A DNA stretch of 64,000 nt from Leisingera sp. ANG-M1 (lineage in GTDB: Bacteria; Pseudomonadota; Alphaproteobacteria; Rhodobacterales; Rhodobacteraceae). The translations under genes and the position numbers were made by a program. The notes beneath the pieces were generated by a model that did not search any database, was not told the DNA's origin, and worked only from the letters and a program-made list of their open reading frames with translations. Within the stretch, counting starts at the first letter, position 1. Each line of letters begins with the position of its first letter. This document shows, in pieces, positions 28,154-54,838 of this stretch. The DNA lies in assembly GCF_000813745.1 (NCBI RefSeq), contig NZ_JWLC01000019.1:1-64000 (forward strand), read 5' to 3'.

Positions 28154-28155
28154 GG

Positions 28156-32383: not shown

Positions 32384-32469
32384 ATTGATGGGCAAGATGT
32401 TTTGTCATAATTGGAAAGCGCGCCCCAGCGGCGCACCAGGTTCACCATGCCGCATGTGAGGGCGCGTAA

Positions 32470-34780: not shown

Positions 34781-34930
34781 CAGTCCCGTTTTAATGGATT
34801 TGTTCGCAAACCTCTGCGGCAATTTCAAAGACTTGCCTTCCTCTTAGGCCTCTGGCCCAAGGCGCTGCCGCACATTCTGACAGCGGACAAGCCTGCGGTG
34901 CAACACCTGCCGGGAGAGAAGGAGCGTGCA

Positions 34931-35917
34931 ATGGACAGCCTCCTGACGCTTTTGCCAATGCTGGTCAAAATGGCCATCGTGGTGGGCGTGCTGCTGCTGC
35001 TGCCGCTGCCGCTCACTTGGATGGAGCGCAAAATTGCCGCCCATATCCAGCAGCGCCCGGGGCCGATGCGGGTGGGATGGCACGGGCTGCTGCAGCCCTT
35101 GGCCGATGCGCTGAAGCTGCTGACCAAAGAGGACCACATCCCGGCCGATGCCGACCGCCGCCTGTTTGCCATGGCGCCGGTGGTGGCGCTGGTGCCGCCG
35201 TTCCTGGTGTTCACCGCCATTCCCTTTGGCACGCCGGTGCAGCTGTTCGGGCAGGAGGTCACGCTGATGATCTCGGACATGAACGTGGGGCTTTTGTTCA
35301 TCCTGGCGGTTTCCGGCATCGGCGTTTTCGGCACCATCCTGGCGGGCTGGTCGTCGAACAGTAAATACGCGGTGCTGGGCAGCCTGCGGTCAATCGCGCA
35401 GATGATCTCCTATGAAATCCCGATGGGGTTTTCGGTGATCGGCGTGGTGATGCTGGCACAGTCCATGAACCTGAGTCAGATCGTGGCGGCGCAGGAAGGC
35501 CTGTGGAATATCGTACTGCAGCCCATCGGCTTCTTCGTTTTCTTCGTGGCCGGTCTGGCCGAGGCGCAGCGCATCCCCTTTGACTTGCCCGAGGCCGAGG
35601 GCGACCTGGGCGCGGGTTATCACACCGAATACAGCGGCATCCGGTTTTCGCTGTTCATGCTGGCGGAATACCTGGTGGTGGTGATGCTGGCGGCGCTCAA
35701 CGTACTCTTGTTCTTCGGCGGCTGGAACGGCGCGCCGCCGTTTGTGCCGGAGCCCGTGTGGTTCCTGCTGAAGGTTGGCTTCTTTGTCTGGGTGTTCATG
35801 TGGTTCCGCTTCACCTTCCCGCGCTACCGCTATGACCAGCTGATGACCATCGGATGGAAGGTGTTGCTGCCGCTCTCGCTGCTGAACATCCTGGTCAGCG
35901 GCCTGTGGATGCTGTGA
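34931..35917 (+). CDS. nuoH: NADH-quinone oxidoreductase subunit H
   Basis: The 328-residue membrane protein has about eight helices and the quinone-cavity signatures of NuoH (W-M-E-R-K, Q-Q-R-P-G-P-x-R-V-G near residue 40; S-Y-E-I-P near residue 160; F-D-L-P-E-A-E near residue 220). It links the peripheral arm and the membrane antiporter-like chain. The ATG at 34931 follows GAGAAGGAGCG; an in-frame ATG at 34898 is rejected. It is the first gene of this operon, unlike the A-first order of most bacterial nuo operons. Confidence 0.95.
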   Translation: MDSLLTLLPMLVKMAIVVGVLLLLPLPLTWMERKIAAHIQQRPGPMRVGWHGLLQPLADALKLLTKEDHIPADADRRLFAMAPVVALVPPFLVFTAIPFGTPVQLFGQEVTLMISDMNVGLLFILAVSGIGVFGTILAGWSSNSKYAVLGSLRSIAQMISYEIPMGFSVIGVVMLAQSMNLSQIVAAQEGLWNIVLQPIGFFVFFVAGLAEAQRIPFDLPEAEGDLGAGYHTEYSGIRFSLFMLAEYLVVVMLAALNVLLFFGGWNGAPPFVPEPVWFLLKVGFFVWVFMWFRFTFPRYRYDQLMTIGWKVLLPLSLLNILVSGLWML

Positions 35918-35932
35918 TCCGGAGAAAATGAA

Positions 35933-36511
35933 ATGGCACGGACATCGGTGAAAAAATCAGGCTGGATCGGCAGGATCTTCTTTGCCGATCTGCTGGCTGG
36001 GCTGCGTTTGACCTTGCGCTATATGTTCTCGCACCCGGTCACCCACCGCTACCCGGACCACGAAAAATGGGTGCCGTACCCGCGCCACCGGGGCCATCAC
36101 TTCATCAAGACCAACGAGGAGGGCGACGTGAACTGTGTGGCCTGCGAGCTGTGCTCGCAGATCTGCCCCTGCGATTGCATCACCGTCATTCCCTTTGAAA
36201 ACGAGAAGGGCGACCGGCGCCCGCAGGTGTTCGATATCAACCTGGCACGCTGCCTTTACTGCGGGTTGTGCGAGGACGCCTGTCCGGCGGACGCAATCAA
36301 ACTAGGTCAAGAATATGAGGTCGCCTGCGATGACCGGCCCAAGCTGGTGGTGCATCTGGAGGATCTGGTGGCCGCGCCGCGCAAGGCAGAGGACGGCGGC
36401 CAGCTGCGGCCTGCCCGTCTGCAGCCGGATGGAAGCGGGCGTTCGGTGGAAGCTGCAGGGGCGAAGTCGCAGGGCCAAGACTGGTGGCGGCACATCCGGA
36501 AGGGAAAGTAG
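35933..36511 (+). CDS. nuoI: NADH-quinone oxidoreductase subunit I (2x[4Fe-4S])
   Basis: The 192-residue ferredoxin-like subunit carries Cys68, Cys71, Cys74, Cys78 and Cys107, Cys110, Cys113, Cys117, the ligands of clusters N6a and N6b that pass electrons to N2. An N-terminal amphipathic part (residues 10-35) anchors it to the membrane arm. It follows nuoH after 15 bp. The C-terminal tail of about 50 residues is poorly conserved-looking. Confidence 0.95.
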   Translation: MARTSVKKSGWIGRIFFADLLAGLRLTLRYMFSHPVTHRYPDHEKWVPYPRHRGHHFIKTNEEGDVNCVACELCSQICPCDCITVIPFENEKGDRRPQVFDINLARCLYCGLCEDACPADAIKLGQEYEVACDDRPKLVVHLEDLVAAPRKAEDGGQLRPARLQPDGSGRSVEAAGAKSQGQDWWRHIRKGK

Positions 36512-36574
36512 ATTTGGTTGCGGCGGGCGTCTTTTGAGACGGGCGCGGCCGCCGCAGTAAAGAGGGGGGCGCAA

Positions 36575-37018
36575 ATGTATGTCAAAGCGGTGCTGGGGGC
36601 CAAGGGGTTTGAAACCTATACAGTGGCCCCGGACGACAGCGTTCTGACGGCGCTGCAGCTGTTCAATGACAAAAAGATCGGCTTTGCCGTGGTCAAAGGT
36701 GCGGGCGGCGAGCCGCTGGGCGGAGTTTCGGAACGGGAAATCTGCAAGGCGCTGGCCGACCCGGACAGCGCCGGGCGGCAGACGCCGGTGCGCGATGTGA
36801 TGACCACCGAGGTGGTTACCTGCGCGCCGGATGACAACCTGATCAAGATCATGGCTTTGATGACCAAAAAGCGCAGCCGCCACATGCTTGTCTGCGATGC
36901 CGAAGGGCTGTGCGGCGTGATCAGCATCGGCGACGTGGTCAAGCATCGGCTCGACGAGATCATGCGCGAGGAAGAAGAGCTGCTGAAATACATCGACGGC
37001 ACCGGCTATAGCGCCTGA
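36575..37018 (+). CDS. CBS-domain pair protein embedded in the complex I operon
   Basis: The 147-residue protein consists of two CBS domains, about residues 13-60 (V-A-P-D-D-S-V-L-T-A-L, then G-G-V-S-E-R-E-I) and 73-125 (V-R-D-V-M-T-T-E-V, then G-V-I-S-I-G-D-V-V-K-H-R). CBS pairs bind adenine nucleotides such as AMP, ATP or NAD and act as energy sensors. The ATG at 36575 follows AGAGGGGGG; an upstream frame from 36518 is rejected. It lies between nuoI and nuoJ, a place where no subunit is normally encoded. A regulatory role for this complex is inferred. Confidence 0.88.
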   Translation: MYVKAVLGAKGFETYTVAPDDSVLTALQLFNDKKIGFAVVKGAGGEPLGGVSEREICKALADPDSAGRQTPVRDVMTTEVVTCAPDDNLIKIMALMTKKRSRHMLVCDAEGLCGVISIGDVVKHRLDEIMREEEELLKYIDGTGYSA

Positions 37019-37074
37019 AGACTGCGTGGGTGGGCAGACAGAAGAGCGGGAGATCACATACAGGGAGGGCATTG

Positions 37075-37626
37075 ATGGAACAGGCATTTTTTCTGCTGCT
37101 TGCGGCGGTGGCGGTGACGGCGGCGCTGCTGGTTGTGCTGGCCCGCAACCCGATCCACAGCGCCCTGGCCCTGGTTGCCTGCTTAGTGCAGATCGCCGCG
37201 CTTTACGTGCTGCTGGGGGCGCCCTTTCTCGCCGTTATCCAGATTTTCGTTTATGTCGGCGCGGTCATGGTGTTGTTCCTGTTTGTCATCATGATGCTGG
37301 ATGTGCGCAAAGAGGCGCAGGTGCGGTTCCTGCGCGGCCCGCTGCTGCCGGGGCTTGTTGTGCTCGCTGTGCTGGCGGGCGAGATGATTGCGCTGCTGCT
37401 GCACAGCACCCGGCTGCATGCGGTGATGGGGCCGGGGCAGCCGGTTCTGGAGCAGCCCTCGGTGGCGGATCTCAGCTTGTTGCTGTTCCAGGAGTATCTG
37501 CTGCCGTTTGAAGTTGCGTCGGTGATCCTGCTGGTGGCGCTGATCGGCGCGGTGGTGCTGGCGCGCGAAGACGGCGCAAGCGCTGCAAAGGCGGCGCGCA
37601 AGGAGCCGCGCGGGGCGGCGCGATGA
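37075..37626 (+). CDS. nuoJ: NADH-quinone oxidoreductase subunit J
   Basis: The 183-residue membrane protein has about five helices and the NuoJ hallmark A-R-N-P-I-H-S-A-L near residue 23 and [13 protein letters not shown] near residue 60. The ATG follows AGGGAGGG at 37062-37069. Its stop overlaps nuoK by 4 bp. Confidence 0.94.
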
Positions 37627-37925
37627 TCCCCACCTCCTGGTATCTGATCCTGGCCGCCGTGCTGTTTGTAATCGGCGGCGCCGGGGTTCTGCTGCGGCGC
37701 AATGTGCTGATTGTGCTGATGTCGCTGGAGCTGATGCTGAACAGCGTGACCATCAACCTGGTCGCCTTCGGCCATGTGCTGCAGGACCTGCGCGGCCAGA
37801 TTATCGCGATCTTTGTCATTGCGATCACTGCTGCCGAGGTGGCGGTGGCATTGGGGATTCTGGTCGCGCTTTTGCGCAACAAGCATTCGCTGGAAGTGGA
37901 TGAGCTGACTGTTTTGAAAGGGTGA
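37623..37925 (+). CDS. nuoK: NADH-quinone oxidoreductase subunit K
   Basis: The 100-residue membrane protein has three helices, with the conserved S-L-E-L-M-L-N-S-V (Glu near residue 36) and the second buried Glu in A-A-E-V-A-V-A-L (near residue 71) that take part in proton transfer. ATGA overlap with nuoJ indicates coupling. Confidence 0.95.
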
Positions 37926-37929
37926 ACGG

Positions 37930-39420
37930 GTGGAGTTTCTGCTGATGATCCGGCCGCTTCTGGCCATTGCCGTCAGCCTGGCGGCCGCGGCGCTGATCCT
38001 GTGCCTGCACAAGCGCCCGGATGCCCGCGATACGGTCTCAGTTGTCGCGGCGCTGCTGAAATTCGCCGTTGTGATCTCGCTGGCGCCGCTGGTGCTGGCG
38101 GGCGGCACCCTGGAACTCACCCTGTTTGAAGTTCTGCCGGGTGTGGATTTTGCCTTTCGCGTGGATGCCCTGGGTATGGTGTTTGCCACCGTCTCCAGCC
38201 TGCTGTGGATCTTTGCCGCGCTCTATTCGATCGGCTATATGCGCAGCCTGAATGAACATGCGCAGACACGGTTCTTTGCCGCCTTTGCGGTGTCGCTGTC
38301 GGCCGCCGTTGGCGGCGCCTTTGCCGCCAACCTGTTCACCCTGGTGATCTTTTACGAGCTGCTGAGCCTGGTCACCTACCCGCTGGTCTACCACAAGGAG
38401 GACGGCGAGAGCTGGGGCGGCAGCCGCCGCTATGTCGTCTACCTGATCGGCGCCTCGAAATCCTTTCTGCTGGCGGCGCTGGCGCTGACCTATCAGCTGG
38501 CCGGAAGCCTGGAGTTCCTGCCGCAGGGGCTGCTGGCAGGCTCCGGCGCCGATGGCTGGCTGCTGAGCGCCGTCTATCTGTGTTACCTGGCAGGCTTCGC
38601 CAAGGCGGCGGTGATGCCGTTCCATGCCTGGCTGCCTGCAGCCATGGTGGCACCGACTCCTGTGAGCGCGCTGCTGCACGCGGTGGCGGTGGTGAAGATG
38701 GGCGTGTTCTGCATGCTGCGGGTGATCTTCCATGTGATGGGGGTGGATCTGATGGGCAGCCTGGGGCTGGGCATTGCCACCGCCTATCTGGTCTCCTTCA
38801 CAATCGTGATGGCCTCGGTCTATGCGCTGACCCGCGACGATCTGAAGGCGCGGCTGGCCTACTCAACCGTCAGTCAGCTGTCCTACATCATTCTGGGCGC
38901 GGTGCTGCTGACGCCGATGGCGGCGGTGGGCGGCATTATCCATATCGCGGCGCATGCGTTTTCCAAGATCACGCTGTTTTTCTGCGCAGGCTCGATCTAC
39001 TGCGCCTCGAAACGTCGCAATATCAGCGATCTGGCGGGCATCGGGCGGCGGCTGCCCTGGACCATGGCGGCGTTTTTTATCGGCTCTTTGGGGATGATCG
39101 GCATTCCGCCTTCGGGCGGCTTTGTCAGCAAATGGTATCTGGTGCTGGGCTCGGTCGAGGGGCGGGAGATGGTGTTTCTGACGGTGCTGCTTGCCAGTGC
39201 GCTTTTGAATGCTGCCTATTTCCTGCCGGTGACCTACACCGCGTTTTTCGAGCCGGAGAAGCCCGGCATCCCCGGCGCGGTGGCGCTGCAGGAGGTGCGG
39301 GAGATCCCGATGGTGGCGGTACCGCTGCTGCTGACGGCGGCGATGTCGCTGGCGCTGGGTTTGGCGCCCGGGTTCTTTGTTGAGCTGGCCCAGCTGGTGA
39401 TGCGCGCGGCGGGGGTGTGA
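37930..39420 (+). CDS. Antiporter-like proton-translocating subunit 1 (MrpD/NuoL/M/N superfamily, 496 aa)
   Basis: This 496-residue protein of about 14 helices belongs to the complex I/Mrp antiporter family. Key residues are present: Glu143 in helix 5 (F-Y-E-L-L), Lys225 in helix 7 (F-A-K-A-A-V-M-P-F-H-A-W-L-P) and Lys256 in helix 8. It occupies the nuoL position after nuoK but lacks the long C-terminal lateral helix of canonical NuoL (about 600 residues or more) and resembles MrpD-like subunits. The GTG start at 37930 lies 4 bp after nuoK. It is probably one of the proton pathways of this complex. Confidence 0.88.
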   Translation: MEFLLMIRPLLAIAVSLAAAALILCLHKRPDARDTVSVVAALLKFAVVISLAPLVLAGGTLELTLFEVLPGVDFAFRVDALGMVFATVSSLLWIFAALYSIGYMRSLNEHAQTRFFAAFAVSLSAAVGGAFAANLFTLVIFYELLSLVTYPLVYHKEDGESWGGSRRYVVYLIGASKSFLLAALALTYQLAGSLEFLPQGLLAGSGADGWLLSAVYLCYLAGFAKAAVMPFHAWLPAAMVAPTPVSALLHAVAVVKMGVFCMLRVIFHVMGVDLMGSLGLGIATAYLVSFTIVMASVYALTRDDLKARLAYSTVSQLSYIILGAVLLTPMAAVGGIIHIAAHAFSKITLFFCAGSIYCASKRRNISDLAGIGRRLPWTMAAFFIGSLGMIGIPPSGGFVSKWYLVLGSVEGREMVFLTVLLASALLNAAYFLPVTYTAFFEPEKPGIPGAVALQEVREIPMVAVPLLLTAAMSLALGLAPGFFVELAQLVMRAAGV

Positions 39421-39422
39421 GG

Positions 39423-39674
39423 ATGGGCTGGCTGGTGAATTTCTTCGGGCAGCGGCGTTACAAGAAGCTGCGCTGGCGGTTGCTGGTTGCGGCGCTGGCG
39501 CTGCTTCTGGCCGCTGATTTCATGGTGCCGCGCCATCACAGCGAACACTTCTGGGATGCGATCCCCGGCTGGGGCGCGGTGTTCGGCTTTGCCAGCTGCG
39601 TGGCCATCATCTTTGTCAGCAAGTTCATCGGCCACAGCGGCGGCATCATGCGGGACGAGGATTATTATGACTGA
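39423..39674 (+). CDS. Small two-helix membrane protein of the complex I operon
   Basis: The 83-residue protein has a basic N-terminus (R-R-Y-K-K-L-R-W-R) and two hydrophobic segments (about residues 20-35 and 47-66), ending in an acidic tail (R-D-E-D-Y-Y-D). I do not recognise its family. It starts 2 bp after one antiporter-like gene and overlaps the next by 8 bp, so it is made together with them and may be an accessory subunit or assembly factor. Confidence 0.75.
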   Translation: MGWLVNFFGQRRYKKLRWRLLVAALALLLAADFMVPRHHSEHFWDAIPGWGAVFGFASCVAIIFVSKFIGHSGGIMRDEDYYD

Positions 39675-41700
39675 GTGGCTGCATCCTGCCCTGCTGATGC
39701 TGATAGGCGCCGCGCTGCTGCCGCTGGTGCGCGGCACCGGCCAGCGGATGCTGTCGCTGATCGTGCCGCTGCTGGTTCTCTACGCGGTGTCGCAAATGGC
39801 GCCGGGCACGTCCGGCGCCATTGCCTTTGCCGGGGTTGAGCTCGTGCTGTTTCAGGCGGACAAGCTGTCGCTGGTCTTTGCCTGGGTCTTTGCCATCATG
39901 TCGTTGATCGGCAATCTGTATGCCTGGCATATCGAGGGCACCGGCCAGCGGGTGGCGGGGTTCCTTTATGCCGGAAGCGCCTTTGGCGTGGTGTTTGCGG
40001 GCGACTGGCTGACGCTGCTTATCGGGTGGGAGGTGATGGCTTTTGCCTCGGCCTATCTGATCTTTGCCTCCCGCAACGCCAAAGCTGTGGCGGCGGGGTT
40101 CCGCTATCTGCTGGTGCATGTGGCGGGGGGCGTGCTGCTGTTCGGCGGCATTGTGCTGCATGGGATTGAGACCGGTTCCTGGCTGGTGGGGCCGTTGGAG
40201 CCAGGGCAGGGGGGGCTGGCCGGCTGGGCCTATTGGCTGATCCTGATCTCCTTCATGATCAACGCGGCGGTGCCGCCTTTGAATGCCTGGCTCACCGATG
40301 CCTACCCCGAGGCCACCGTGACCGGCGCGGTGTTCCTCAGCGCCTTTACCACCAAGACCGCGGTTTACGTGCTGATCCGCAATTACCCGGGGGCGGAGAT
40401 CCTGGTGGGGTTTGGGGTGGCGATGGCGCTTTATGGCGTGGTCTTTGCGGTGCTGGAGAACAACTGCCGCCGCCTCCTTGCCTATCACATCGTCAGCCAG
40501 GTGGGATACATGGTGGCCGGCGTCGGCATCGGCACCGAGATGGCACTGAACGGGGCGGCCTCCCACGCGTTTGCCCATATCCTCTACAAGGGGTTGCTGT
40601 TCATGGGCGCGGGGGCGGTGATCCTGATGGCCGGGCGGCGCAAGCTGACCGAGCTGGGCGGGCTTTACCGCACCATGCCGCTCACTGTTGTGCTTTACAT
40701 GATCGGGGCCTTTGCGATTTCGGCCTTTCCGCTGTTCAGCGGCTTTGTCAGCAAATCCATGGTGGTCTCGGCCGCGGCGGGCGATCACCGGGCCGCTGCG
40801 GCGCTGCTGCTGACGGTGGCATCATCCGGCACCTTCCTGCACACCGGGCTGAAGCTGCCTTATTATATGTTCTTCGGCAAGGATTGCGGCCTGCGCCCGC
40901 CCGAGCCGCCGCTGAACATGCTGCTGGCGATGGGGATTGCGGCGGCATTCTGCATTGGCATCGGGGTCTATCCGCAGGCGCTTTACGCTCTGCTGCCCTA
41001 TCCGGTGGACTATGAGCCCTACACGGCTGTGCATGTGACCGAGAGCCTAGGGCTTTTGATGTTCACCCTCCTGGCCTTTGTGCTGCTGCTGAAGCATCTG
41101 GACCCTGAGGACACCATCAGCTTGGACACCGACTGGCTCTACCGGCGCGGGGCGCGGGGGTTCATGTGGGTCGCCAGGCATCCGGTGCTTGCCTGGGAGC
41201 AGAGGCTGATTACCCTAGGCGACGTCGCCGGGCTGCGGCTGATGCACCATCTGTCGCGGCTCAGCCTGCTGGCCGACATCCGGGTCGTGGATGCGCTGGT
41301 CAATGGCGTGGCGGCGAGCGCCCGGCGCGGCGGGCTTCTGATGCGGCGGCTGCAGACCGGCGTGGTGTCGCATTATGCCTTCTGGATCATTGCCGGGCTG
41401 ATTGCCGGGTTGGCCTGGGCGGTTGCGGGGGCCTGGCTGGCGGCGGCGGAGGCCGCTGAACCTGATCCGGCGGACTGGATGCAACGGCAGGAAACGGTAG
41501 GTTCGCGCCCGGCCCCGGGGGTGGGCGCCTTGCCGCAGGATGCAAGGGCTGGGCCAAGCGCAACCCTCGCAGTGTTTCGTGATGTTGGAGCAATTCGCGC
41601 CCGCCCTGGAGGGCGGGGCCGGGCGCGAACCGGATCGCAAAGCGATCCGGGGGCAAAACGCCTCTCAGCCGGGACAGAAGCCAAGGCAGGTGCATCATGA
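39667..41700 (+). CDS. Antiporter-like subunit 2 (MrpD/NuoL superfamily, 677 aa, C-terminal extension)
   Basis: The 677-residue protein has an antiporter-like core of about 14 helices (to about residue 460) and a C-terminal extension with a further hydrophobic segment near residue 575, ending in a Pro/Gly/Arg-rich tail. Glu122 (G-W-E-V-M) and Lys230 (T-T-K-T-A-V-Y) match conserved pump residues, but the helix 7 lysine is replaced by Asn199 (I-N-A-A-V-P-P-L-N-A-W-L) by eye alignment. It is an extra relative to the usual L/M/N set. The ATG at 39667 is preferred over 39487 because it overlaps the small gene and gives a family-like N-terminus. Proton pumping by this subunit is uncertain. Confidence 0.85.
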   Translation: MTEWLHPALLMLIGAALLPLVRGTGQRMLSLIVPLLVLYAVSQMAPGTSGAIAFAGVELVLFQADKLSLVFAWVFAIMSLIGNLYAWHIEGTGQRVAGFLYAGSAFGVVFAGDWLTLLIGWEVMAFASAYLIFASRNAKAVAAGFRYLLVHVAGGVLLFGGIVLHGIETGSWLVGPLEPGQGGLAGWAYWLILISFMINAAVPPLNAWLTDAYPEATVTGAVFLSAFTTKTAVYVLIRNYPGAEILVGFGVAMALYGVVFAVLENNCRRLLAYHIVSQVGYMVAGVGIGTEMALNGAASHAFAHILYKGLLFMGAGAVILMAGRRKLTELGGLYRTMPLTVVLYMIGAFAISAFPLFSGFVSKSMVVSAAAGDHRAAAALLLTVASSGTFLHTGLKLPYYMFFGKDCGLRPPEPPLNMLLAMGIAAAFCIGIGVYPQALYALLPYPVDYEPYTAVHVTESLGLLMFTLLAFVLLLKHLDPEDTISLDTDWLYRRGARGFMWVARHPVLAWEQRLITLGDVAGLRLMHHLSRLSLLADIRVVDALVNGVAASARRGGLLMRRLQTGVVSHYAFWIIAGLIAGLAWAVAGAWLAAAEAAEPDPADWMQRQETVGSRPAPGVGALPQDARAGPSATLAVFRDVGAIRARPGGRGRARTGSQSDPGAKRLSAGTEAKAGAS

Positions 41701-43196
41701 GCGGGCTGCCGGTTCTTAGCATTTTGATCCTGCTGCCTGCTGCCGGCGCCTTGGCGGTGCCGTTCCTGCGCGGCAACGGCCTGGTGCGCAGGTTCACCTT
41801 GGGCGTGCTGTTTGCGGATTTCCTGCTGGCGGCAGCGATCCTGGCTGCCTTCGATCCTACCACCGCAGAGATGCAGTTCCGCGAGGCGCAGCTGTGGGTG
41901 CCGGCGCTGGATATGGGCTACCGGCTGGGGCTGGACGGCATCAGCGTCTGGTTTGTGCTGCTGACCACGCTCTTGGGCTGGATCTGCGTATTGGCCTCTT
42001 GGCGGGCTATCGCCGAGCGGGTCAAGGAGTTCATGACCTGCCTGCTGGCCATCCAGGCGATGATGGTGGGTGTGTTCTGCGCGCTCGATCTGGTGCTGTT
42101 CTACGTGCTGTGGGAGGTGATGCTGGTGCCGATGTATCTGATCATCGGCATCTGGGGCGGCGGCAACCGGATTTATGCCGCCTTCAAGTTCTTCCTCTAC
42201 ACGCTGGCGGGCAGCCTGCTGTTCCTGGTCGGGCTTCTGGCGCTGTATTTCGCGGGCGGCCGCACCTTTGACATGCTGGCGCTGATGGATGCTGAGTACC
42301 CCTTCCGCCTGCAGGTCTGGGTGTTCCTTGCCTTCCTGGTCGCCTTTGCGGTCAAGGTGCCGATGGTGCCGGTGCACACCTGGCTGCCGGACGCCCATGT
42401 GCAGGCGCCGACGGCAGGCAGCATCATCCTGGCGGGTGTGCTTTTGAAGATGGGCGCCTATGGCTTCCTGCGCTTTTCGCTGCCGATGCTGCCCGATGCG
42501 TCCCTGTATCTGGCGCCGCTGATGATCGCGCTGTCAGCCTCGGCAATTGTCTATGGCGGGCTTCTGGCGCTAGCGCAAACCGACATCAAGAAGCTGATCG
42601 CCTATTCCAGCGTCAGCCATATGGGCTTTGTCACCCTGGGTTTGTTCACCTTCCAGCAGAACGGCATGTCCGGCGCGGTGATCCAGATGTTCAACCACGG
42701 CATCACCACCGGCGCGCTGTTCCTGTTTGTCGGGCTGATCTACGAGCGCACCCACAGCCGCGAGATCGCCGCTTATGGCGGCATGATCAAGGCAGTGCCG
42801 ATTTTCGGTGTCCTGTTTGCTGCCTTCCTGCTGGCCTCGATGGCGGTGCCCGGCACCAATGGGTTCATTGGTGAGATCCTGGTGCTGGCGGGCACTTTCG
42901 GGGTCAGCGGCTGGGCTGGAACCGCCGGGGTGCTGGGCGCGCTGATCGGCGCCGCCTATCTGCTCGGGCTCTACCGGCAAGTGCTGCTGGGGCCGGTGAA
43001 AATCCCTGCAGGCTCGGTGATGCAGGACCTGCGCCGCCGTGAGCTGGCCTGCGCGCTGCCGCTGCTTCTGTTCGTGTTCTGGTTCGGCCTCTACCCTAAG
43101 CCTTTCCTGGCCATACTGCAGCCATCGCTCGATCATCTGATGACGCAGATCACGCAATCGGATGAGGCTGCAACGGAGGGGCTGGCATGGAAATGA
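41697..43196 (+). CDS. nuoM: NADH-quinone oxidoreductase subunit M
   Basis: The 499-residue membrane protein has the NuoM signature: L-W-E-V-M-L-V-P-M-Y (conserved helix 5 Glu), A-V-K-V-P-M-V-P-V-H-T-W-L-P-D-A-H (helix 7 Lys) and L-L-K-M-G-A-Y-G (helix 8 Lys). ATGA overlap with the preceding antiporter-like gene shows coupling. Its stop overlaps nuoN by 10 bp. Confidence 0.95.
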   Translation: MSGLPVLSILILLPAAGALAVPFLRGNGLVRRFTLGVLFADFLLAAAILAAFDPTTAEMQFREAQLWVPALDMGYRLGLDGISVWFVLLTTLLGWICVLASWRAIAERVKEFMTCLLAIQAMMVGVFCALDLVLFYVLWEVMLVPMYLIIGIWGGGNRIYAAFKFFLYTLAGSLLFLVGLLALYFAGGRTFDMLALMDAEYPFRLQVWVFLAFLVAFAVKVPMVPVHTWLPDAHVQAPTAGSIILAGVLLKMGAYGFLRFSLPMLPDASLYLAPLMIALSASAIVYGGLLALAQTDIKKLIAYSSVSHMGFVTLGLFTFQQNGMSGAVIQMFNHGITTGALFLFVGLIYERTHSREIAAYGGMIKAVPIFGVLFAAFLLASMAVPGTNGFIGEILVLAGTFGVSGWAGTAGVLGALIGAAYLLGLYRQVLLGPVKIPAGSVMQDLRRRELACALPLLLFVFWFGLYPKPFLAILQPSLDHLMTQITQSDEAATEGLAWK

Positions 43197-44638
43197 CATC
43201 CGTCACCGCCTCGGTTCTGGCTTCCGGCCCCGAGATCATCATTATCCTTGGCGCCTGTGCGGTGCTGATGCTGTCGCTGCTGCCGGGTCCCGGCCCTGTC
43301 CGCTGGCTGGCGGGGCTGAGCCTGCTGATGATCGCTCTGGCCGCGGGGATGAGCTGGGGCCTCGCCGGTCACGCGCAAACGGTCTATTCCGGCATGTTCA
43401 CGGTCGACCCGTTTTCGACCTTCCTCAAGATGGTGCTGTATCTGGGAACAGCGCTGACCATCCTGATGTCGGGCGGCTATCTGGCCACCGAACGGGTGGT
43501 GCGCGGCGAGTATTATGCGCTGCTGCTCTGCGCGCTCGCGGGCGCGATGATCATGGTATCCGGTACCGATCTGGTGATTATCTACGTCGGACTCGAGCTG
43601 CAGGCGCTGTCGGTTTATGTTCTGGTGGGGTTCCTGAAAACCCATGGCCGCTCCAACGAGGCGGCGTTGAAATATGTGATCCTGGGGGCGTTTTCCTCGG
43701 GCCTGCTGCTGTTTGGCCTGTCGCTGTTCTATGGCCTGGCAGGCACCACCCAGCTGCAAGAGCTGCAGATGGCGCTGGCCGCACAGGATATCTCCAGCCC
43801 GCTCTTGGTGCTGGCGGCGCTGTTCCTGGTGGCGGGTCTGTTGTTCAAACTTGGCGCGGTGCCTTTTCACATGTGGGTGCCGGATATTTACGAGGGCGCG
43901 CCCTCGCCGATCACCGGCTTCATGGCAGCTGTGGGCAAGGCCGCCGCATTTGCCGTGGTGCTGCGGGTCCTGATGCTGGATCTGACCGCGCTCAACCCGG
44001 TCTGGCACGCCGCCGTCGCGGCAGCGGCGGTGCTGACCCTGGGGCTGGGCAGCCTGGCGGCGCTGGTGCAGGAGAATATCAAGCGGATGCTGGCCTATTC
44101 CTCGGTTGCTCATGCCGGGTTCCTGTTGCTGGGGCTGCTTGCCGGAGGCCCCGGCGGACTGGCCAGCGTGATGCTGTATCTGTTGATCTTCACCTTCATG
44201 ACGCTGGGCCTGTTTGCGGTGGTTGTGCTGCTGAACGAGGGGGCGGAGCGGGGCGAGCCGATCCAAGCCTTTGCAGGCCTGGCCCGGACTCATGCGCTGC
44301 TGGCCGCTTTGGCACTGGTATTCCTGTTTTCGCTGGCGGGCATCCCGCCGACCGGCGGCTTTTTTGCCAAGTTTTACGTTCTGATGGCGCTGATCGAGGC
44401 GGGCCATGCGGTGCTGGCGGTGATTGCAGTGCTGCTGAGCGCAGTGGCCGCGTGGTTCTATTTGCGGATCATCATGCTGATGTACACGCAGGCGCCTGCC
44501 GGCCCGGCGCGGATTGCGGTTTCCGGGCCGATGCGGCTGGTATTGTTTGCGGCGCTGGCGGGCACGCTGGCGACCGGCATCCTGCCGGCCTGGTTCCTGG
44601 GGTGGGCGCAGGCGGCAGCGGCGGCGGGATTTGGTTGA
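43187..44638 (+). CDS. nuoN: NADH-quinone oxidoreductase subunit N
   Basis: The 483-residue membrane protein shows NuoN features: G-L-E-L-Q-A-L-S-V-Y-V-L (helix 5 Glu), L-F-K-L-G-A-V-P-F-H-M-W-V-P-D (helix 7 Lys) and S-S-V-A-H-A-G-F. It ends the first half of the operon; a 225-bp structured gap separates it from nuoA. Confidence 0.95.
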   Translation: MEMTSVTASVLASGPEIIIILGACAVLMLSLLPGPGPVRWLAGLSLLMIALAAGMSWGLAGHAQTVYSGMFTVDPFSTFLKMVLYLGTALTILMSGGYLATERVVRGEYYALLLCALAGAMIMVSGTDLVIIYVGLELQALSVYVLVGFLKTHGRSNEAALKYVILGAFSSGLLLFGLSLFYGLAGTTQLQELQMALAAQDISSPLLVLAALFLVAGLLFKLGAVPFHMWVPDIYEGAPSPITGFMAAVGKAAAFAVVLRVLMLDLTALNPVWHAAVAAAAVLTLGLGSLAALVQENIKRMLAYSSVAHAGFLLLGLLAGGPGGLASVMLYLLIFTFMTLGLFAVVVLLNEGAERGEPIQAFAGLARTHALLAALALVFLFSLAGIPPTGGFFAKFYVLMALIEAGHAVLAVIAVLLSAVAAWFYLRIIMLMYTQAPAGPARIAVSGPMRLVLFAALAGTLATGILPAWFLGWAQAAAAAGFG

Positions 44639-44712
44639 ACGGGGGCTTTGGTGTATGCTTGCGGCGGAGAATGCTTCGCTGAAAAGCGTGCAAAGCTAAC
44701 GGAAATCGCGGA

Positions 44713-44791
44713 GGGCAGCGCCTGGCCCTGGGTGGGCGTGAAGCGGCCTCCCGTGGGGAGGGTCGGGCGCTGCCCGGCCTATCGGCCGGGC
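44713..44791 (+). promoter_or_regulatory. Structured RNA candidate with mutually exclusive hairpins between nuoN and nuoA
   Basis: In the 225-bp gap 44639-44863, GGGCAGCGCC (44713-44722) can pair with GGCGCTGCCC (44766-44775) enclosing CCTCCC-GTG-GGGAGG (44747-44761). The right arm overlaps a competing hairpin GCCCGGCC-TATC-GGCCGGGC (44772-44791). The two folds cannot coexist fully. Such a switch could act as an attenuator, processing site or a REP-like stability element separating the membrane-arm half of the operon from the A-G half. No open frame with a credible start is in the gap. Confidence 0.45.
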
Positions 44792-44863
44792 GGTTCAGAT
44801 ACCATTTAAAGCGCCGTTTCAGGGAACCAGAAAAAAGGGAACAAACACGAAAGGGGAAACAGC

Positions 44864-45226
44864 ATGCCTATCGACTTTCTGCCGGTGTTCCTGATGGTGG
44901 CGGTGGTCGTCGCGCTGTCGGTCTTTATCCTGACCCTGTCGCGGCTGATCCGGCCCGACAACCCGTACCCGGAGAAGAACCGCCCCTATGAATGCGGAGT
45001 CGACCACGTGGGCGAAGCCTCGGGCGGGCTATTCAAGGTCCAGTACTTCGTGATCGCCATCCTGTTTGTGGTCTTCGACGTCGAGACCATGTTCCTGTTC
45101 CCCTGGGCGGTGGTGCTGAGCGACCTGGGCCTGTTCGGCTATATCGAGATGTTTGTGTTCATAGCGCTGCTGCTGGTCGGCTTTGCCTATGCCTGGATCA
45201 AAGGAGCGCTGGAATGGGTGTCCTGA
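44864..45226 (+). CDS. nuoA: NADH-quinone oxidoreductase subunit A
   Basis: The 120-residue protein has three helices and the NuoA signature N-R-P-Y-E-C-G-V-D (residues 39-47) with the loop Cys, then [26 protein letters not shown] precedes the ATG. It overlaps nuoB by 13 bp. Confidence 0.95.
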
Positions 45227-45723
45227 GCCACAGCATGCAGGACAGCGTGCTGTTCACAACCGCAGACGACATTATCAACTGGAGCCGCAAATCCTCGCTC
45301 TGGCCGCAGACCTTCGGCATTGCGTGCTGTGCGATCGAGATGATCTCGGCGGGCTGCGCGCGTTATGACCTGGACCGCTTCGGCGTGGTGTTCCGCCCCT
45401 CGCCGCGGCAGTCGGATGTGATGATCGTGGCCGGCACGGTGACCCGCAAGATGGCTCCGATTGTGCGGCGGCTTTACGACCAGATGGCCGAGCCGCGCTA
45501 TGTCATCGCCATGGGCACATGCGCTATCTCCGGCGGCGTCTACAACACCTATGCGGTGGTGCAGGGGGTCGATTGCATCATCCCCGTCGATATCCATGTT
45601 GCCGGCTGCCCGCCGCGGCCTGAGGCGCTGCTGCACGGGTTCCTGCAGCTGCAGGAGAAGATCACCGGTTCACGGGTTTTGAGAGCTGAGCCGGACGCGC
45701 TGCCTTCGGCGGAAAGGGCGTGA
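45214..45723 (+). CDS. nuoB: NADH-quinone oxidoreductase subunit B (cluster N2)
   Basis: The 169-residue protein carries the N2 ligands Cys38, Cys39, Cys103 and Cys132 ([21 protein letters not shown]), the last cluster before quinone. The ATG at 45214 lies within nuoA and has AAGGAG 7 bp upstream; longer frames to 44992 are not supported. Confidence 0.95.
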
Positions 45724-45725
45724 GC

Positions 45726-46229
45726 ATGACGGAGATCCCTCTGGGTTCTGCTTTGGAGCAGTTCAGCAATGTGCATTTGGATGAGACCGCGGCGGATATG
45801 CCCTGCCTGATGGTACCGCCTGCGGACCTGCTGGCGCTGTGTCAGTTCCTTCGCGGCGAAGCGGCGCTGCAGTTCAATTTCCTATCGGACATTTGCGGGG
45901 TGGATTTCCATCCTGAAGCCCCACGCTTCCAGCTAGTTTATCATCTGGTGTCGATCCCGAACCACTGGCGGCTGCGGCTGAAATGCTGGCTTGGCGATCC
46001 GCCGGTTGCCCCTACTGTCACCAGCGTATGGACCACCGCCAACTGGCACGAGCGCGAGGCCTACGACATGTATGGCATCCATTTCGACGGCCACCCGGAC
46101 CTGCGCCGCCTGTATATGTGGGACGAATTCGACGGCTACCCGATGCGCCGCGACTTCCCCTTGCGCGGCTACAAAGATCACATGAACCCGCTGGGCGTTG
46201 AGCGGAGGAGAAACGGGGGCGGCGCATGA
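45726..46229 (+). CDS. nuoC: NADH-quinone oxidoreductase subunit C
   Basis: The 167-residue protein matches NuoC (30-kDa subunit): H-E-R-E-A-Y-D-M-Y-G-I-x-F, then G-H-P-D-L-R-R-L-Y and P-M-R-R-D-F-P-L-R-G-Y. It is separate from NuoD, unlike the fused CD of E. coli. The ATG at 45726 is spaced correctly from AAAGGG; the GTG at 45720 is too close. Confidence 0.95.
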   Translation: MTEIPLGSALEQFSNVHLDETAADMPCLMVPPADLLALCQFLRGEAALQFNFLSDICGVDFHPEAPRFQLVYHLVSIPNHWRLRLKCWLGDPPVAPTVTSVWTTANWHEREAYDMYGIHFDGHPDLRRLYMWDEFDGYPMRRDFPLRGYKDHMNPLGVERRRNGGGA

Positions 46230-47443
46230 CCGAAGTCACCACCCTGCAGGAAGTCCCGACCGATACCGGCATGGCCCGCGAAGTGCTGATGAACCTCGGG
46301 CCGCAGCACCCCAGCACCCATGGCGTCTTGCGGCTGCTGCTGCAGATGGACGGCGAGATCGTCGAGCGGATCGAACCGCATATCGGCCTGTTGCACCGGG
46401 GCACTGAAAAGCTGTTTGAAAGCTTCACCTACACCCAGATCTTTCCGCTTACGGACCGGTTGGACTACCTTTGCCCGCCGTCGAACAACCTGGGCTACGC
46501 ACTGGCGGTGGAGGCGCTCTTGGGGATCGAGGCGCCGCTGCGCGGCCAGTACATCCGCGTCATCATGGCGGAATTGTCGCGTATTTCCGGCCACTTGCTA
46601 ATCACTGGCGCCTTGCCGATGGATGTCGGGGCGATGACCTCGCTCTTGTACACCATGCGCGACCGCGAGATGGTGCTGGATCTGATGGAGATGATCAGCG
46701 GCGTCCGTATGCACACATCGTTCTGCCGGGTCGGCGGCGTGCGCGAGGACCTGCCCGAGGGGGCGGAGGCGCGGATCCTGGAGTTCTGCGATATCTTCGC
46801 GGACCGGATTTCCGACTATGAAACGCTGCTGAAAAACAACCGGATCTTCCTCGCCCGCGTCGAAAACATCGGCAATATCACCGCTGAAGATGCCATTGCG
46901 TTGGGCCTGACCGGCCCCAACCTGCGCGCCTCGGGCGTCGACTGGGACCTGCGCCGCGATGAACCTTATGAAATCTACGACCGGCTGGAATTCAATGTCA
47001 TCACCCGTAAGGACGGCGACTGTTACGACCGCTGGAAATGCCGCCTGGACGAGATGCGCGAAAGCCTGCGGATGATCCGGCAATGCGTTGAGCAGATGCC
47101 TGCCGGCGATGTGCTGGTCGATGATCCCAAGATCGCCTTTCCGGTGGACAAGGACCTGCTGGCCCATTCGATGGAGACCCATATCCACCATTTTGAGCTC
47201 GCCGCCTATGGTTTCAAGGTGCCCAAGGGCGAGGTGTATCAGGCCATCGAGGCGCCCAAGGGCGAGCTGGGTTATTACCTGATCTCGGACGGCAGCGAGA
47301 AACCGTTCCGGCTCAAGGTGCGCTCGCCGTCGTTTGTGAATCTGCAGGCGCTGACCGAGCGTACCACCAATATGAAATACCTCGCTGATGTGATCGCCAT
47401 GCTGGGCAGCCTTGATCCGGTGATGGGGGAGGTCGACAAATGA
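46226..47443 (+). CDS. nuoD: NADH-quinone oxidoreductase subunit D
   Basis: The 405-residue protein is the 49-kDa subunit, related to NiFe-hydrogenase large subunits, and forms the quinone pocket with NuoB. N-L-G-P-Q-H-P-S-T-H-G (near residue 22) holds the quinone-loop His, and R-S-P-S-F-V-N-L-Q-A-L lies near the C-terminus. Start overlaps nuoC (ATGA). Confidence 0.95.
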   Translation: MTEVTTLQEVPTDTGMAREVLMNLGPQHPSTHGVLRLLLQMDGEIVERIEPHIGLLHRGTEKLFESFTYTQIFPLTDRLDYLCPPSNNLGYALAVEALLGIEAPLRGQYIRVIMAELSRISGHLLITGALPMDVGAMTSLLYTMRDREMVLDLMEMISGVRMHTSFCRVGGVREDLPEGAEARILEFCDIFADRISDYETLLKNNRIFLARVENIGNITAEDAIALGLTGPNLRASGVDWDLRRDEPYEIYDRLEFNVITRKDGDCYDRWKCRLDEMRESLRMIRQCVEQMPAGDVLVDDPKIAFPVDKDLLAHSMETHIHHFELAAYGFKVPKGEVYQAIEAPKGELGYYLISDGSEKPFRLKVRSPSFVNLQALTERTTNMKYLADVIAMLGSLDPVMGEVDK

Positions 47444-47949
47444 GCGCCGCCACGGTTGCCACCATCAAGCAGGCGCTTGCTTCCCAGGTGCAGGAGGCTG
47501 CAGCGCGCTATCCTACCAAGCGCAGCGCCATTATGCCGACCCTGGAGCTGGCGCAGCAAGCTTATGGGGTTATTGATGGCACCACCTATCAGGCTATCGC
47601 CGAGCTGCTGGACGTGCCGGAAATCTGGGTGTTCGAGGTTGCCAGTTTCTACACCCTGTTCGACCGCAAGGAGATGGGGCGCTATCACCTGCAGCTTTGC
47701 ACCAATGTCTCCTGCATGCTGGCCGGTGCCGAGGAGCTGCTGGAGGAGTTGCGGATGCATCTGGCGGCGGAAGGCCCGCATGAGGGGCTGTTTTCTCTTA
47801 GCGCGGTGGAATGCCTAGGCGCCTGCGACAAGGCGCCGGTGCTGATGGTCAACGCCGACTACATCGAGGACATCACCCCGGCCAAGCTGGAGGTGCTGCT
47901 GGCGGCGCTTGAGCGCGAAGCGAAGGCGGCAGAGGAGGGCGCGGCATGA
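47440..47949 (+). CDS. nuoE: NADH-quinone oxidoreductase subunit E ([2Fe-2S] N1a)
   Basis: The 169-residue thioredoxin-fold subunit has [2Fe-2S] ligands Cys87, Cys92, Cys125 and Cys129 (C-T-N-V-S-C, then C-L-G-A-C). It partners NuoF in the NADH dehydrogenase module. ATGA overlaps at both ends. Confidence 0.95.
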   Translation: MSAATVATIKQALASQVQEAAARYPTKRSAIMPTLELAQQAYGVIDGTTYQAIAELLDVPEIWVFEVASFYTLFDRKEMGRYHLQLCTNVSCMLAGAEELLEELRMHLAAEGPHEGLFSLSAVECLGACDKAPVLMVNADYIEDITPAKLEVLLAALEREAKAAEEGAA

Positions 47950-49223
47950 GCGATCTGGTCCTTCTCAGGAACATCGAAAACCCGGATGCGCCGGAAATTG
48001 CGGTCTATGAAAGCTCCGGTGGCTATGAGGGTCTGCGCATCGTGCTACGCGATTTCGCGCCTGATCAGGTGATTGAAGCGGTGAAATCCTCCAGCCTACG
48101 CGGGCGGGGCGGAGCTGGTTTTCCCACCGGCATGAAGTGGAGCTTTGTCCCCAAGGACAGCGGCAAACCGCATTACCTGTGCTGCAACGCAGACGAGGGC
48201 GAGCCGGGCACCTTCAAGGACCGCATCCTGATGGAGCGCGACCCGCATCAGCTGATCGAAGGCATGGTGATCGCCGCTTATGCCATCGGCGCCAATACCG
48301 CCTATCTCTACATCCGCGGCGAATATGGGCTGTCGATCCGGCAATGCGAACAGGCCATCGCGGCCGCCTATGCCAAGGGGTATCTGGGTAAGGACATCCT
48401 GGGCAGCGGCTTTGACCTGGACATTCACATCCACAAAGGCGCCGGCGCCTATATTTGCGGCGAGGAAACAGCGCTGCTGGAATCCATCGAAGGCAAGCGC
48501 GGCCAGCCCAAGCTGAAGCCGCCGTTCCCGGCGGTGGCGGGGCTGTATGAATGCCCGACCGTGGTCAACAATGTCGAAACGCTGGCCTGCCTGCCGCATC
48601 TGTTCCGCCGCGGGGTGGAGTGGTTCACTTCGATTGGCCCTGAGGACGGACCGGGGCCGAAGCTTTTCTGTTTCAGCGGCCAGGTCAAGCGCCCCGGTGT
48701 CTATGAGGTGCCGATGGGGCTGCCTTTGGGCGAGATGCTGGAGGTTTACGGCGGCGGCGCCCTCAGCGGCCGGTTCAAGGCGGCAATTCCGGGCGGGGTT
48801 TCGGCACCGATGTTCCCTGAAAGCGGCTTTGACGTGAAGATGGACTTCAGCTCATTGGCGGCTGCGGGCAGCATGCTGGGCTCGGCCGGGGTGATCGGGC
48901 TGGACGAGAGTGCCTCGATACCCCGTGTCGCGCGGCGGATCACCGAGTTCTTCAGCCACGAAAGCTGCGGCAAATGCACCCCCTGCCGTGAGGGCCTCAC
49001 CTGGGCCGCCAAGATCCTGCGCCGGATCGAGGCGGGCGAGGGGGCGCCCGGCGATGTCGCGCAGCTGGACATGCTCTGCGGCAGTATCTTCGGCAAGTCC
49101 TTCTGTGCCCTTGGCGATGGCGCGGCCTGGGCCCTGGGTGCGGCGCTGAAACACTTCCGTCACGAATTCGAAGCGCTGATCCCGGCTCAGGCGCAGCCGG
49201 TGCAGGAGATGCGGCTATGGTGA
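47946..49223 (+). CDS. nuoF: NADH-quinone oxidoreductase subunit F (NADH/FMN, N3)
   Basis: The 425-residue flavoprotein binds NADH and FMN (G-R-G-G-A-G-F-P-T-G-M-K-W near residue 55; G-A-G-A-Y-I-C-G-E-E-T-A-L near residue 170) and cluster N3 (E-S-C-G-K-C-T-P-C-R-E-G near residue 340 plus a later Cys). It is the electron entry point. It is also similar to the FdsB/HoxF group of NAD-linked formate dehydrogenases and hydrogenases. Its last 7 bases overlap nuoG. Confidence 0.95.
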   Translation: MSDLVLLRNIENPDAPEIAVYESSGGYEGLRIVLRDFAPDQVIEAVKSSSLRGRGGAGFPTGMKWSFVPKDSGKPHYLCCNADEGEPGTFKDRILMERDPHQLIEGMVIAAYAIGANTAYLYIRGEYGLSIRQCEQAIAAAYAKGYLGKDILGSGFDLDIHIHKGAGAYICGEETALLESIEGKRGQPKLKPPFPAVAGLYECPTVVNNVETLACLPHLFRRGVEWFTSIGPEDGPGPKLFCFSGQVKRPGVYEVPMGLPLGEMLEVYGGGALSGRFKAAIPGGVSAPMFPESGFDVKMDFSSLAAAGSMLGSAGVIGLDESASIPRVARRITEFFSHESCGKCTPCREGLTWAAKILRRIEAGEGAPGDVAQLDMLCGSIFGKSFCALGDGAAWALGAALKHFRHEFEALIPAQAQPVQEMRLW

Positions 49224-51604: not shown

Positions 51605-51698
51605 CCAGTGGCACTGCCTCCGGGCCCCTGCTGGTTTGCAATGCAGGAGCGGAACAACAGCCCCTGCCGCCTCTGAAACCTGACGAGGAGCACCTGCT

Positions 51699-52598
51699 GT
51701 GAAGACCAATGCCCGCAACGTCATTGTGCTTGGCGGTACTGGATTTCTTGGCAGGCGGCTGGTCAGCCGCCTCGCAGAGCGCGGCTGCCGGGTCAGTGTT
51801 GGAACCCGGTTTCCCGGGGCCGCTGCCCGCAGCCGCCGCTGGGGCGGGGGTGTGAATTTGGTCCGGACCAACCTGAAGAACCGCAGCGCATTGGCCAGGG
51901 TGCTGGCAGGCTGCAGCGCGGTGGTCAATTGCATCGGCTATTACGCCGAGACCCGCGGCGAAAGCTTCCAGGACGTTCACTCCGAGGCCGCCCGCAGGAT
52001 TGCCCGTTTGGTTCGGGAAAACGGAGACCAGCGCCTCATCCATATTTCCGGGATCGGGGCCAGCCTGAGTTCACCCTCAGCCTATGTCCGGGCCCGTGCA
52101 GAAGGCGAGGCCGCGGTGCGCACTGCTTGCCCGGGCGCGGTTGTCCTGCGGCCCAGTGTGATGTTCAGCCGCAACGGCGCCTTCTTTGGCGATCTGCAAA
52201 AGATCGCGGCACGGCTGCCGGTCATTCCATTGTTTGGCATGGGCCGCACGCGGCTGCAGCCGGTTTGGGTCGAGGACGTCGCCGAAGCAGTTTGCCGTAT
52301 TCTTGATGGCGGCCGCGTCGGCCGGAAAGTGATCGAGTTGGGCGGGCCTGATATCTTTACCTACCGGGAGATACTGCAGCGCCTGATTGTCCGCAGCGGC
52401 CGCCGCCGCTTGCTTTTGCCGCTACCCTTTGCGCTGTGGCGGATTGCGGCGGCGCTGCTCTCTCCGCTGCCGCAGCCACCGGTAACGCAGGCACAGATCG
52501 CTTTGATGCAGCGGGACAATATTGCCGGTGCCACCGCCGCGGGGTTTGCCGACCTCGGGATGGAGCCGCAGTCGGCAATCGCCATGGGATTGGTTTAG
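51699..52598 (+). CDS. NAD(P)-binding complex I accessory protein, NDUFA9-like
   Basis: The 299-residue protein is an atypical short-chain dehydrogenase/epimerase with the nucleotide motif G-G-T-G-F-L-G at residues 12-18. L-R-P-S-V-M-F, the Q-P-V-W-V-E-D-V-A motif and overall pattern match the NDUFA9-like family, whose mitochondrial member is a structural NADPH-binding subunit of complex I. The catalytic Y-x-x-x-K of active enzymes is not obvious (A-Y-V-R-A-R-A lies in that region). The GTG start follows ACGAGGAG at 51683-51690. It is the last gene of the complex I operon, 94 bp after nuoG. Confidence 0.85.
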   Translation: MKTNARNVIVLGGTGFLGRRLVSRLAERGCRVSVGTRFPGAAARSRRWGGGVNLVRTNLKNRSALARVLAGCSAVVNCIGYYAETRGESFQDVHSEAARRIARLVRENGDQRLIHISGIGASLSSPSAYVRARAEGEAAVRTACPGAVVLRPSVMFSRNGAFFGDLQKIAARLPVIPLFGMGRTRLQPVWVEDVAEAVCRILDGGRVGRKVIELGGPDIFTYREILQRLIVRSGRRRLLLPLPFALWRIAAALLSPLPQPPVTQAQIALMQRDNIAGATAAGFADLGMEPQSAIAMGLV

Positions 52599-54837: not shown

Positions 54838-54838
54838 A

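Follow-up and report, generated by a model that had tools for sequence, protein, structure and literature searches.

The stretch analysed here (the window) is 64,000 nucleotides of the genome of Leisingera sp. ANG-M1, on contig NZ_JWLC01000019.1, and its positions 34931-52598 hold a cluster of 18 genes for complex I, all with open frames and all on the + strand. The best explanation of this cluster, and one that we consider probable, is that it encodes a complex I of the green type. This would be a second NADH:quinone oxidoreductase that has four antiporter-like subunits and presumably pumps protons. In it, one antiporter-like protein, antiporter2 (Ant2), would sit in the slot of NuoL and another, antiporter1 (Ant1), would lie outside the strap, the lateral helix at the C-terminus of Ant2. 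Judged by gene content, the cluster is a rearranged representative of an already known type.

The order and content given in the initial annotation, H-I-CBS-J-K-Ant1-small-Ant2-M-N-gap-A-B-C-D-E-F-G-SDR, were borne out by Pfam and NCBIfam, every named gene being present. The order does differ from the common A-to-N order, as was claimed, but it reshuffles a set of genes that is already known, and the non-standard genes number five (CBS, Ant1, small, Ant2 and SDR) rather than the four first counted. The NADH module is whole, as had been stated, with NuoE, NuoF and NuoG all matched by Pfam. The identity of H, I, J, K, M, N and A to G is beyond doubt by Pfam and NCBIfam together, and the gap between nuoN2 and nuoA2 is 225 bp. 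The genes, with identities given to the organism's own canonical complex I, are as follows:

34931-35917, + strand: nuoH2, membrane subunit of the quinone site; PF00146 at E 9.9e-123 (in a longer frame, 34898-35917), 46% identical to the own NuoH
35933-36511, + strand: nuoI2, two 4Fe-4S clusters; Fer4 matches, 39% identical to the own NuoI
36575-37018, + strand: CBS-pair protein, 147 amino acids; PF00571 in two stretches, start checked
37075-37626, + strand: nuoJ2; PF00499 at E 1.1e-39
37623-37925, + strand: nuoK2; PF00420 at E 5.1e-28
37930-39420, + strand: antiporter1, GTG start; NF006236 at 757.9 bits (cut-off 663)
39423-39674, + strand: small protein of 83 amino acids, without a named family; by eye, two stretches look hydrophobic
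39667-41700, + strand: antiporter2; NF009310 at 737.8 bits (cut-off 564), NuoL-like C-terminus with lateral helix
41697-43196, + strand: nuoM2, a true NuoM; TIGR01972 at 609 bits (cut-off 263.8), clusters with NuoM in the tree
43187-44638, + strand: nuoN2, a true NuoN; TIGR01770 at 445 bits (cut-off 332.6), clusters with NuoN in the tree
44864-45226, + strand: nuoA2; PF00507 at E 1.3e-37
45214-45723, + strand: nuoB2; PF01058 (in a longer frame, 44992-45723), 62% identical to the own NuoB over 126 residues
45720-46229, + strand: nuoC2; PF00329 at E 2.9e-46
46226-47443, + strand: nuoD2; PF00346 at E 2.4e-114
47440-47949, + strand: nuoE2; PF01257 at E 4.8e-44
47946-49223, + strand: nuoF2, site of FMN and NADH; PF01512 and PF10589
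49217-51604, + strand: nuoG2, with an extra 4Fe-4S (N7-type) motif; PF04879 at residues 218-269
51699-52598, + strand: NAD(P)-binding SDR, initially annotated as NDUFA9-like; PF01370

The NuoH model PF00146 matches exactly two places in the genome, this cluster and positions 162698-163621 of contig C6, where a canonical operon with normal L, M and N is found. Furthermore, Ant1 and Ant2 score only 174 and 127 bits with the NCBIfam model of NuoL, which has a cut-off of 407.5. Therefore, the organism has a second complex I, as had been suspected, and this second complex is without NuoL, a point that the initial annotation passed over; Ant1, the small protein and Ant2 (the cassette) occupy the place of NuoL. 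The two complexes are alike in 12 subunit pairs that are 33-62% identical (NuoA was left out of the comparison, as the C6 stretch ends before it), but the canonical Nuo14 complex has NuoL and three antiporters, and the cluster, which has no NuoL, does not belong to that class. No match to the CBS, small or SDR protein was seen in the 19.9-kb stretch around the canonical operon.

In green complex I, described from rhizobia in 2016, two antiporter-like proteins replace NuoL (PMC9040806; this and the other literature statements below come from extracts of the cited papers). About 70 Alphaproteobacteria, mostly Rhizobiaceae, carry two complex I operons, one standard and one green, and the green complex of rhizobia is reported to be upregulated in symbiosis (PMC7415380). 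Its NuoG is given an additional 4Fe-4S cluster in a legend of PMC4967309. The cluster studied here likewise has two MrpD-like antiporter proteins in place of NuoL, a standard Nuo14 operon beside it in the genome, a rearranged gene order and an Ant2 helix without the 26-residue insert of other forms (51 residues, against 77 in insert-bearing ones). The extra 4Fe-4S cluster of NuoG2 is predicted from a binding motif, C-x2-C-x3-C-x27-C; the organism's canonical NuoG has none, and a like motif is present in 44 of 45 related NuoG proteins above 690 amino acids, shorter ones being left out. The label "MrpD-like" is not a settled one: matches in NCBIfam and PDB point to "subunit D" and archaeal MBS/MBH chains, while within the genome, which has one MrpA/MrpD-like gene pair (on contig C18), Ant1 and Ant2 each pair best with MrpA.

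A kinship with the second nuo cluster of rhizobia, raised at the outset, was confirmed on a megaplasmid of S. meliloti (CP050513, 1.67 Mb), which has the same genes, CBS and small included. There, the annotation reads J, K, "monovalent cation/H+ antiporter subunit D", hypothetical, "Na(+)/H(+) antiporter subunit D", M, N and A-G, with CBS-I-H following on the other strand, whereas here the genes run from H to G in one direction and end with the SDR gene. Phyllobacterium has the same gene set. The 2M complex I of Nitrospira (Chadwick 2018, via PMC9040806) also has four antiporter-like subunits, but it keeps NuoL, with the lysine of transmembrane helix 7 (TM7) and a helix 25 residues longer (77 against 51-52), and duplicates NuoM; the cluster has one NuoM and no NuoL. 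Complex_I_3 of Ca. Manganitrophaceae (PMC9040806) has the same kind of antiporter pair but differs in a second NuoM and a 26-residue helix insert. Four loci (L232, L251, L252 and L254) match it in content, with a helix of 77 residues and a second NuoM-like gene 29-30% identical to their own NuoM.

Relatives were named from the best 80 of 113 confirmed loci among 140 candidate stretches; the loci are not independent, many being close kin. They include Alpha-, Beta- and Gammaproteobacteria, Desulfobacterota, Nitrospirota, Acidobacteria, Planctomycetota, an Acidimicrobiia and Methanoperedenaceae. Within the genus, 3 of 21 genomes have the Ant2 family (NF009310); for the taxonomic family the figure is 34 of 394, for the phylum 21 of 398 and for the Nitrospirota 39 of 198. 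These counts mix two kinds of neighbourhood, one inside complex I clusters, with K and M on either side, and one following Mrp genes. The slot between K and M holds the cassette in 81 complex I-linked loci across phyla, and in none of these was NuoL the best match of any stretch. NuoM adjoins Ant2 in only 2 of 28 loci of the family, judged on 1.5-kb flanks. In the green-type clusters of Desulfobacterota (L077, L084-L088 and L101) the DNA examined gave no match to NuoE or NuoF, and these complexes perhaps use another electron donor.

The fixed K-M slot speaks against the possibility that Ant1, the small protein and Ant2 form a separate antiporter merely encoded within the operon. Although the cassette is found elsewhere without complex I genes, and the strap helix is not lengthened by Ant1, such an antiporter would leave the cluster without NuoL, and the C-terminus of Ant2 is NuoL-like (TIGR01974 match to 629/630, and a profile match) with a length that follows the number of NuoM in most loci. 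We regard a separate antiporter as highly improbable.

Mrp operons with extra antiporter genes share the Ant1(-small)-Ant2 cassette with the complex I clusters but have no redox part, and their Ant2 often keeps the TM7 lysine (13 of 19). In Methanoperedenaceae archaea (L110 and L111) the order is MrpA-MrpC-Ant1-small-Ant2. Two extra antiporter genes also follow mrpD in Ca. N. alkalitolerans (PMC7784846), where membership of the same families is not established. The presence of the cassette behind Mrp genes would fit a sodium or mixed ion pump, in which this Mrp-related cassette adds Na+/H+ exchange to proton pumping. The MrpA-G set is, however, not among the 18 genes, and this includes the parts thought to handle sodium, MrpE-G and the C-terminus of MrpA; nor do the rhizobial carriers give any pointer to salt. 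A role in sodium transport is therefore unlikely.

The relationships within the cassette were followed in a tree made by a quick method with a midpoint root and some long branches, covering 12 of the 81 complex I-linked and 10 of the 19 Mrp-linked loci. Ant1 and Ant2 each form one clade (100), apart from NuoL, NuoM, NuoN, MrpA and MrpD. The complex I-linked copies are one clade within Ant1 (97) and one within Ant2 (98), and Mrp-linked copies of Ant2 that bear asparagine at the TM7 position stand beside the complex I-linked Ant2 clade (91).

The placing of Ant2 and Ant1 in the membrane arm depends on the strap. In a profile alignment of C-termini, Ant2 and canonical NuoL match with a probability of 99%, without gaps from an aspartate at residue 519 of the window protein to TM16, and helix length was taken as the residues from this NuoL-homologous aspartate to TM16. 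In Proteobacteria, the NuoL helix is 52-53 residues long in 30 of 30 cases (48 in E. coli). Nitrospirota clusters with a single NuoM have the same length in 10 of 12, with 77 in the other two (L298 and L299), and all 8 clusters with two NuoM have 77. For Ant2 the figure is 51-52 in 79 of 80 loci, with 77 in L101. Among the Nitrospirota it is 51 in 10 of 12 one-NuoM loci (77 in L253 and L255), whereas the 4 loci that have a second NuoM-like gene all show 77. The strap of Ant2 thus mostly has the length found in NuoL and, apart from the exceptions, is some 25 residues longer only where there is a second NuoM, and Ant1 does not lengthen it; the helix inserts of the 2M and Manganitrophaceae complexes are already in print (PMC9040806). 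Since strap length mostly follows the number of NuoM and not Ant1, Ant2 would adjoin NuoM and Ant1 would probably lie outside the strap. The deviating loci L101, L253, L255, L298 and L299, with a long helix and one NuoM seen, perhaps represent complexes losing or about to gain a subunit; the contig of L101 shows only four antiporter genes, a further pair lying elsewhere in that genome.

Measured from a DWLY-type motif to TM16, Ant2 has 81-82 residues and NuoL 56-57, which had suggested a 25-residue extension covering one more subunit; this was withdrawn, as the motif is not that of NuoL, and the arm order that we infer changed with it. The same 81-82 residues, together with the AlphaFold2 model of the window Ant2, in which 75 residues (489-563) make one helix with a pLDDT of about 57-72 along most of it, would favour a different arm, with Ant1 between NuoM and Ant2 and with Ant2 as an end cap whose longer helix spans Ant1, M and N. 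The profile alignment, however, does not pair the DWLY-type motif with that of NuoL, the homologous part has the length of NuoL's, and Ant2 is without the insert of the 2M and Manganitrophaceae proteins (PMC9040806). We therefore see this alternative order as a serious possibility but not the probable one. The nearest solved folds to Ant2 are MrpA and NuoL/NDH-F chains.

The antiporter subunits of complex I share a glutamate of TM5 paired with a lysine of TM7, a lysine of TM8 (histidine in NuoL/ND5) and a lysine or glutamate of TM12 (PMC10212512). In the window Ant2 the TM7 lysine is replaced by Asn199. The complex I-linked Ant2 proteins have asparagine at this position in 80 of 80 loci (one of the 81 was too short, and two loci of unknown context were counted apart), and all 80 keep the TM5 glutamate and the TM8, TM11 and TM12 lysines. 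A further 18 from Nitrospirota have asparagine (14), cysteine (2), serine (1) or threonine (1), the last three residues in L241, L242, L257 and L258, and none has lysine; the TM5 residue is also lost in one of the 18, that of TM8 in one and that of TM11 in three. The TM7 lysine is therefore absent from 98 of 98 distinct complex I-linked loci (94 asparagine, 4 other), and it is present in 50 of 50 NuoL proteins (30/30 and 20/20) and in every Ant1 (94), NuoM (77) and NuoN (72) read. Ant1 has the TM8 histidine of NuoL and MrpA, the TM5 glutamate and the TM7, TM8, TM11 and TM12 lysines, invariant in 74 of 74 complex I-linked loci, and the full protonatable set is found in NuoM (77 of 77) and NuoN (72 of 72). 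L233 and L256, being truncated, were left out of the NuoM counts, and the context of L243 is unclear.

Among Mrp-linked copies, Ant2 has asparagine at TM7 in the remaining 6 of 19 loci and in 9 of 9 from Nitrospirota. The loci of the family without an adjoining NuoM have lysine in 26 of 26. Two further family loci with asparagine (L139 and L145) proved to be copies of L041 and L050 and do not figure among the 98; six loci without the motif used in this copy check were not compared. Because the asparagine-bearing Mrp-linked copies adjoin the complex I-linked Ant2 clade, the loss of the lysine probably preceded the entry of the cassette into complex I. In the extracts of the green complex I literature nothing was found on the TM7 residue of Ant2, on members from Rhodobacterales or on the small protein, nor was any report found of Ant2 strap length tracking NuoM number or of the cassette in Mrp operons; the original 2016 and 2018 papers may contain these.

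It may be asked whether Ant2 is an ordinary extra pump that works despite its asparagine, giving five protons per NADH, as has been proposed in print where there is one extra subunit. Complexes with one to two extra subunits have been proposed to move 5 to 6 ions (PMC9040806), Ant2 retains its other four protonatable residues in all 80 loci, and NuoL itself is functional without a TM8 lysine (alignment; PMC9802314), so that proton networks do vary. Set against this are the complete absence of the TM7 lysine in the 98 loci, its presence in every NuoL, Ant1, NuoM and NuoN read, the further losses among the 18 Nitrospirota proteins, and the report that the Glu-Lys pair is essential in ND4 of Paracoccus (PMC9802314). 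Those ND4 variants whose activity sufficed for measurement still moved four protons per NADH (PMC9802314), so for an Ant2 that lacks the lysine throughout a changed role is likelier than mere slowness. An ordinary extra pump is accordingly possible but doubtful.

We propose that the green-type complex would work as follows. By sequence, the genes A to I supply the full NADH and quinone part, beside a true NuoM and NuoN, with Ant1, the small protein and Ant2 replacing NuoL. Ant2 would be beside NuoM in the slot of NuoL, its strap helix spanning M and N, and Ant1 would be added outside the strap, probably at the tip, so that from base to tip the arm would read N-M-Ant2-Ant1; the gene order Ant1-small-Ant2-M-N would then run from tip to base, like L-M-N. 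The roles of NuoL look to be split, Ant1 having the pumping (the full protonatable set and the NuoL/MrpA-type histidine) and Ant2 the clamping (the helix, no TM7 lysine). The oxidation of NADH would power proton transfer through N, M and Ant1, with Ant2 either moving one or only passing protons on, and the small protein may, speculatively, bridge Ant1 and Ant2. A stronger form of this can be put forward tentatively: the small protein would be the third part of a movable antiporter cassette common to complex I and Mrp, Ant2 would be strap and bridge without a full proton channel, the true exit pump would be Ant1 at the tip outside the strap, and four protons, not five, would be moved. We hold this reading of Ant2 as strap and bridge to be no better than possible because a NuoL variant without the lysine (below) grew normally outside complex I and because Ant2 keeps the TM8 lysine that NuoL lacks.

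Several points weigh against the green-type explanation with its proposed arm. It is built from sequence and predicted structure. An exceptionless rule linking helix length to NuoM number had to be rejected, since L101, L253, L255, L298 and L299 deviate from it. About 20 extra residues precede the homologous part of the Ant2 helix, and in the AlphaFold2 model they are continuous with it, so that the helix may instead reach over Ant1 as well, with Ant2 at the tip. The TM7 asparagine also occurs in part of the Mrp-linked Ant2 proteins and so is not an adaptation to complex I alone. Finally, the NuoL variant K229A showed wild-type growth in a salt assay made outside complex I, with a sodium extrusion that was a little reduced, as it was in every mutant (PMC4938563).

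Opinions differ on whether the antiporter-like subunits each export a proton of their own or whether all protons exit through the end subunit NuoL/ND5 (PMC10212512, PMC9802314). In green complex I, a natural variant, the subunit with the strap has no TM7 lysine and the NuoL-type histidine is in another protein, and a proton count and structure of the green enzyme would bear directly on this dispute. If the stronger form of the proposal is true, the clamping and pumping jobs of NuoL have been separated in nature, and a longer arm pumps four protons rather than five. Clusters in the named Leisingera, Ruegeria and rhizobial strains offer workable hosts.

Where both antiporters are seen, the small protein accompanies them in 74 of 76 loci linked to complex I and in 12 of 19 linked to Mrp, and 14 aligned sequences have a conserved EDYYD-like end. 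It has no NCBIfam family, only stray single-member matches in Pfam (best E 0.003) and no PDB match below E 0.1. The window Ant2 has 677 residues, whereas its relatives end at 590-591, so that its last 87 or so residues are a private tail; its 3' end (41590-41665) crosses a dispersed repeat with nine matching places in the genome, itself included. A CBS gene lies near 25 of 81 complex I-linked loci at 28-76% identity, the flanks being limiting, and adjoins nuoI in S. meliloti, for example; with identities down to 28%, some of these genes may be unrelated. The CBS protein of the window is perhaps, and speculatively, an adenine-nucleotide sensor of the complex. Relatives of the SDR protein (52-53%) are found only in two Ruegeria loci, upstream of nuoJ. 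The SDR was rejected as a core part, since beyond the window and these two loci it was not found in two loci of the same genus, one of which ends 1.8 kb past the nuoG match.

The initial annotation had also suggested a tie to amine oxidation, which found no backing: the upstream betaine and dimethylglycine genes were sought in all fetched loci and gave weak, scattered matches, namely an enolase-type gene (28%) in one acidobacterial locus, genes like that of dimethylglycine dehydrogenase (DMGDH; 28-33%) about 10 kb away in Phyllobacterium, and some SDR genes (29-31%). The flanks upstream of nuoH were short in the two same-genus genomes (5.6 and 1.0 kb), which left the farther DMGDH genes of the window outside that comparison. 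In the window these genes lie at 16463-33612 and comprise an old-yellow-enzyme type, an MTTB-like, two DMGDH-like, a BCCT transporter and two mandelate-racemase-like genes of betaine or methylated-amine catabolism, a set which we take to resemble proline-betaine catabolism. The other use suggested in the initial annotation, at low oxygen, would agree with the reported upregulation of rhizobial green complex I in symbiosis (PMC7415380), but a search for FNR/FixK-like boxes gave it no support. With at most one mismatch allowed in the 400 bp upstream, 1 of 67 loci had such a box, compared with 3.6% of random stretches; the window had none, its best candidate showing two mismatches. A promoter scan was uninformative, with 5 matches against 3.5 expected. 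On the - strand, an open frame of 865 amino acids at 60920-63517 without a Pfam match may be a chance frame. Directly behind the cluster, also on the - strand, 52660-55429 encodes a molybdopterin-binding large subunit and a 2Fe-2S small subunit of the xanthine-dehydrogenase type.

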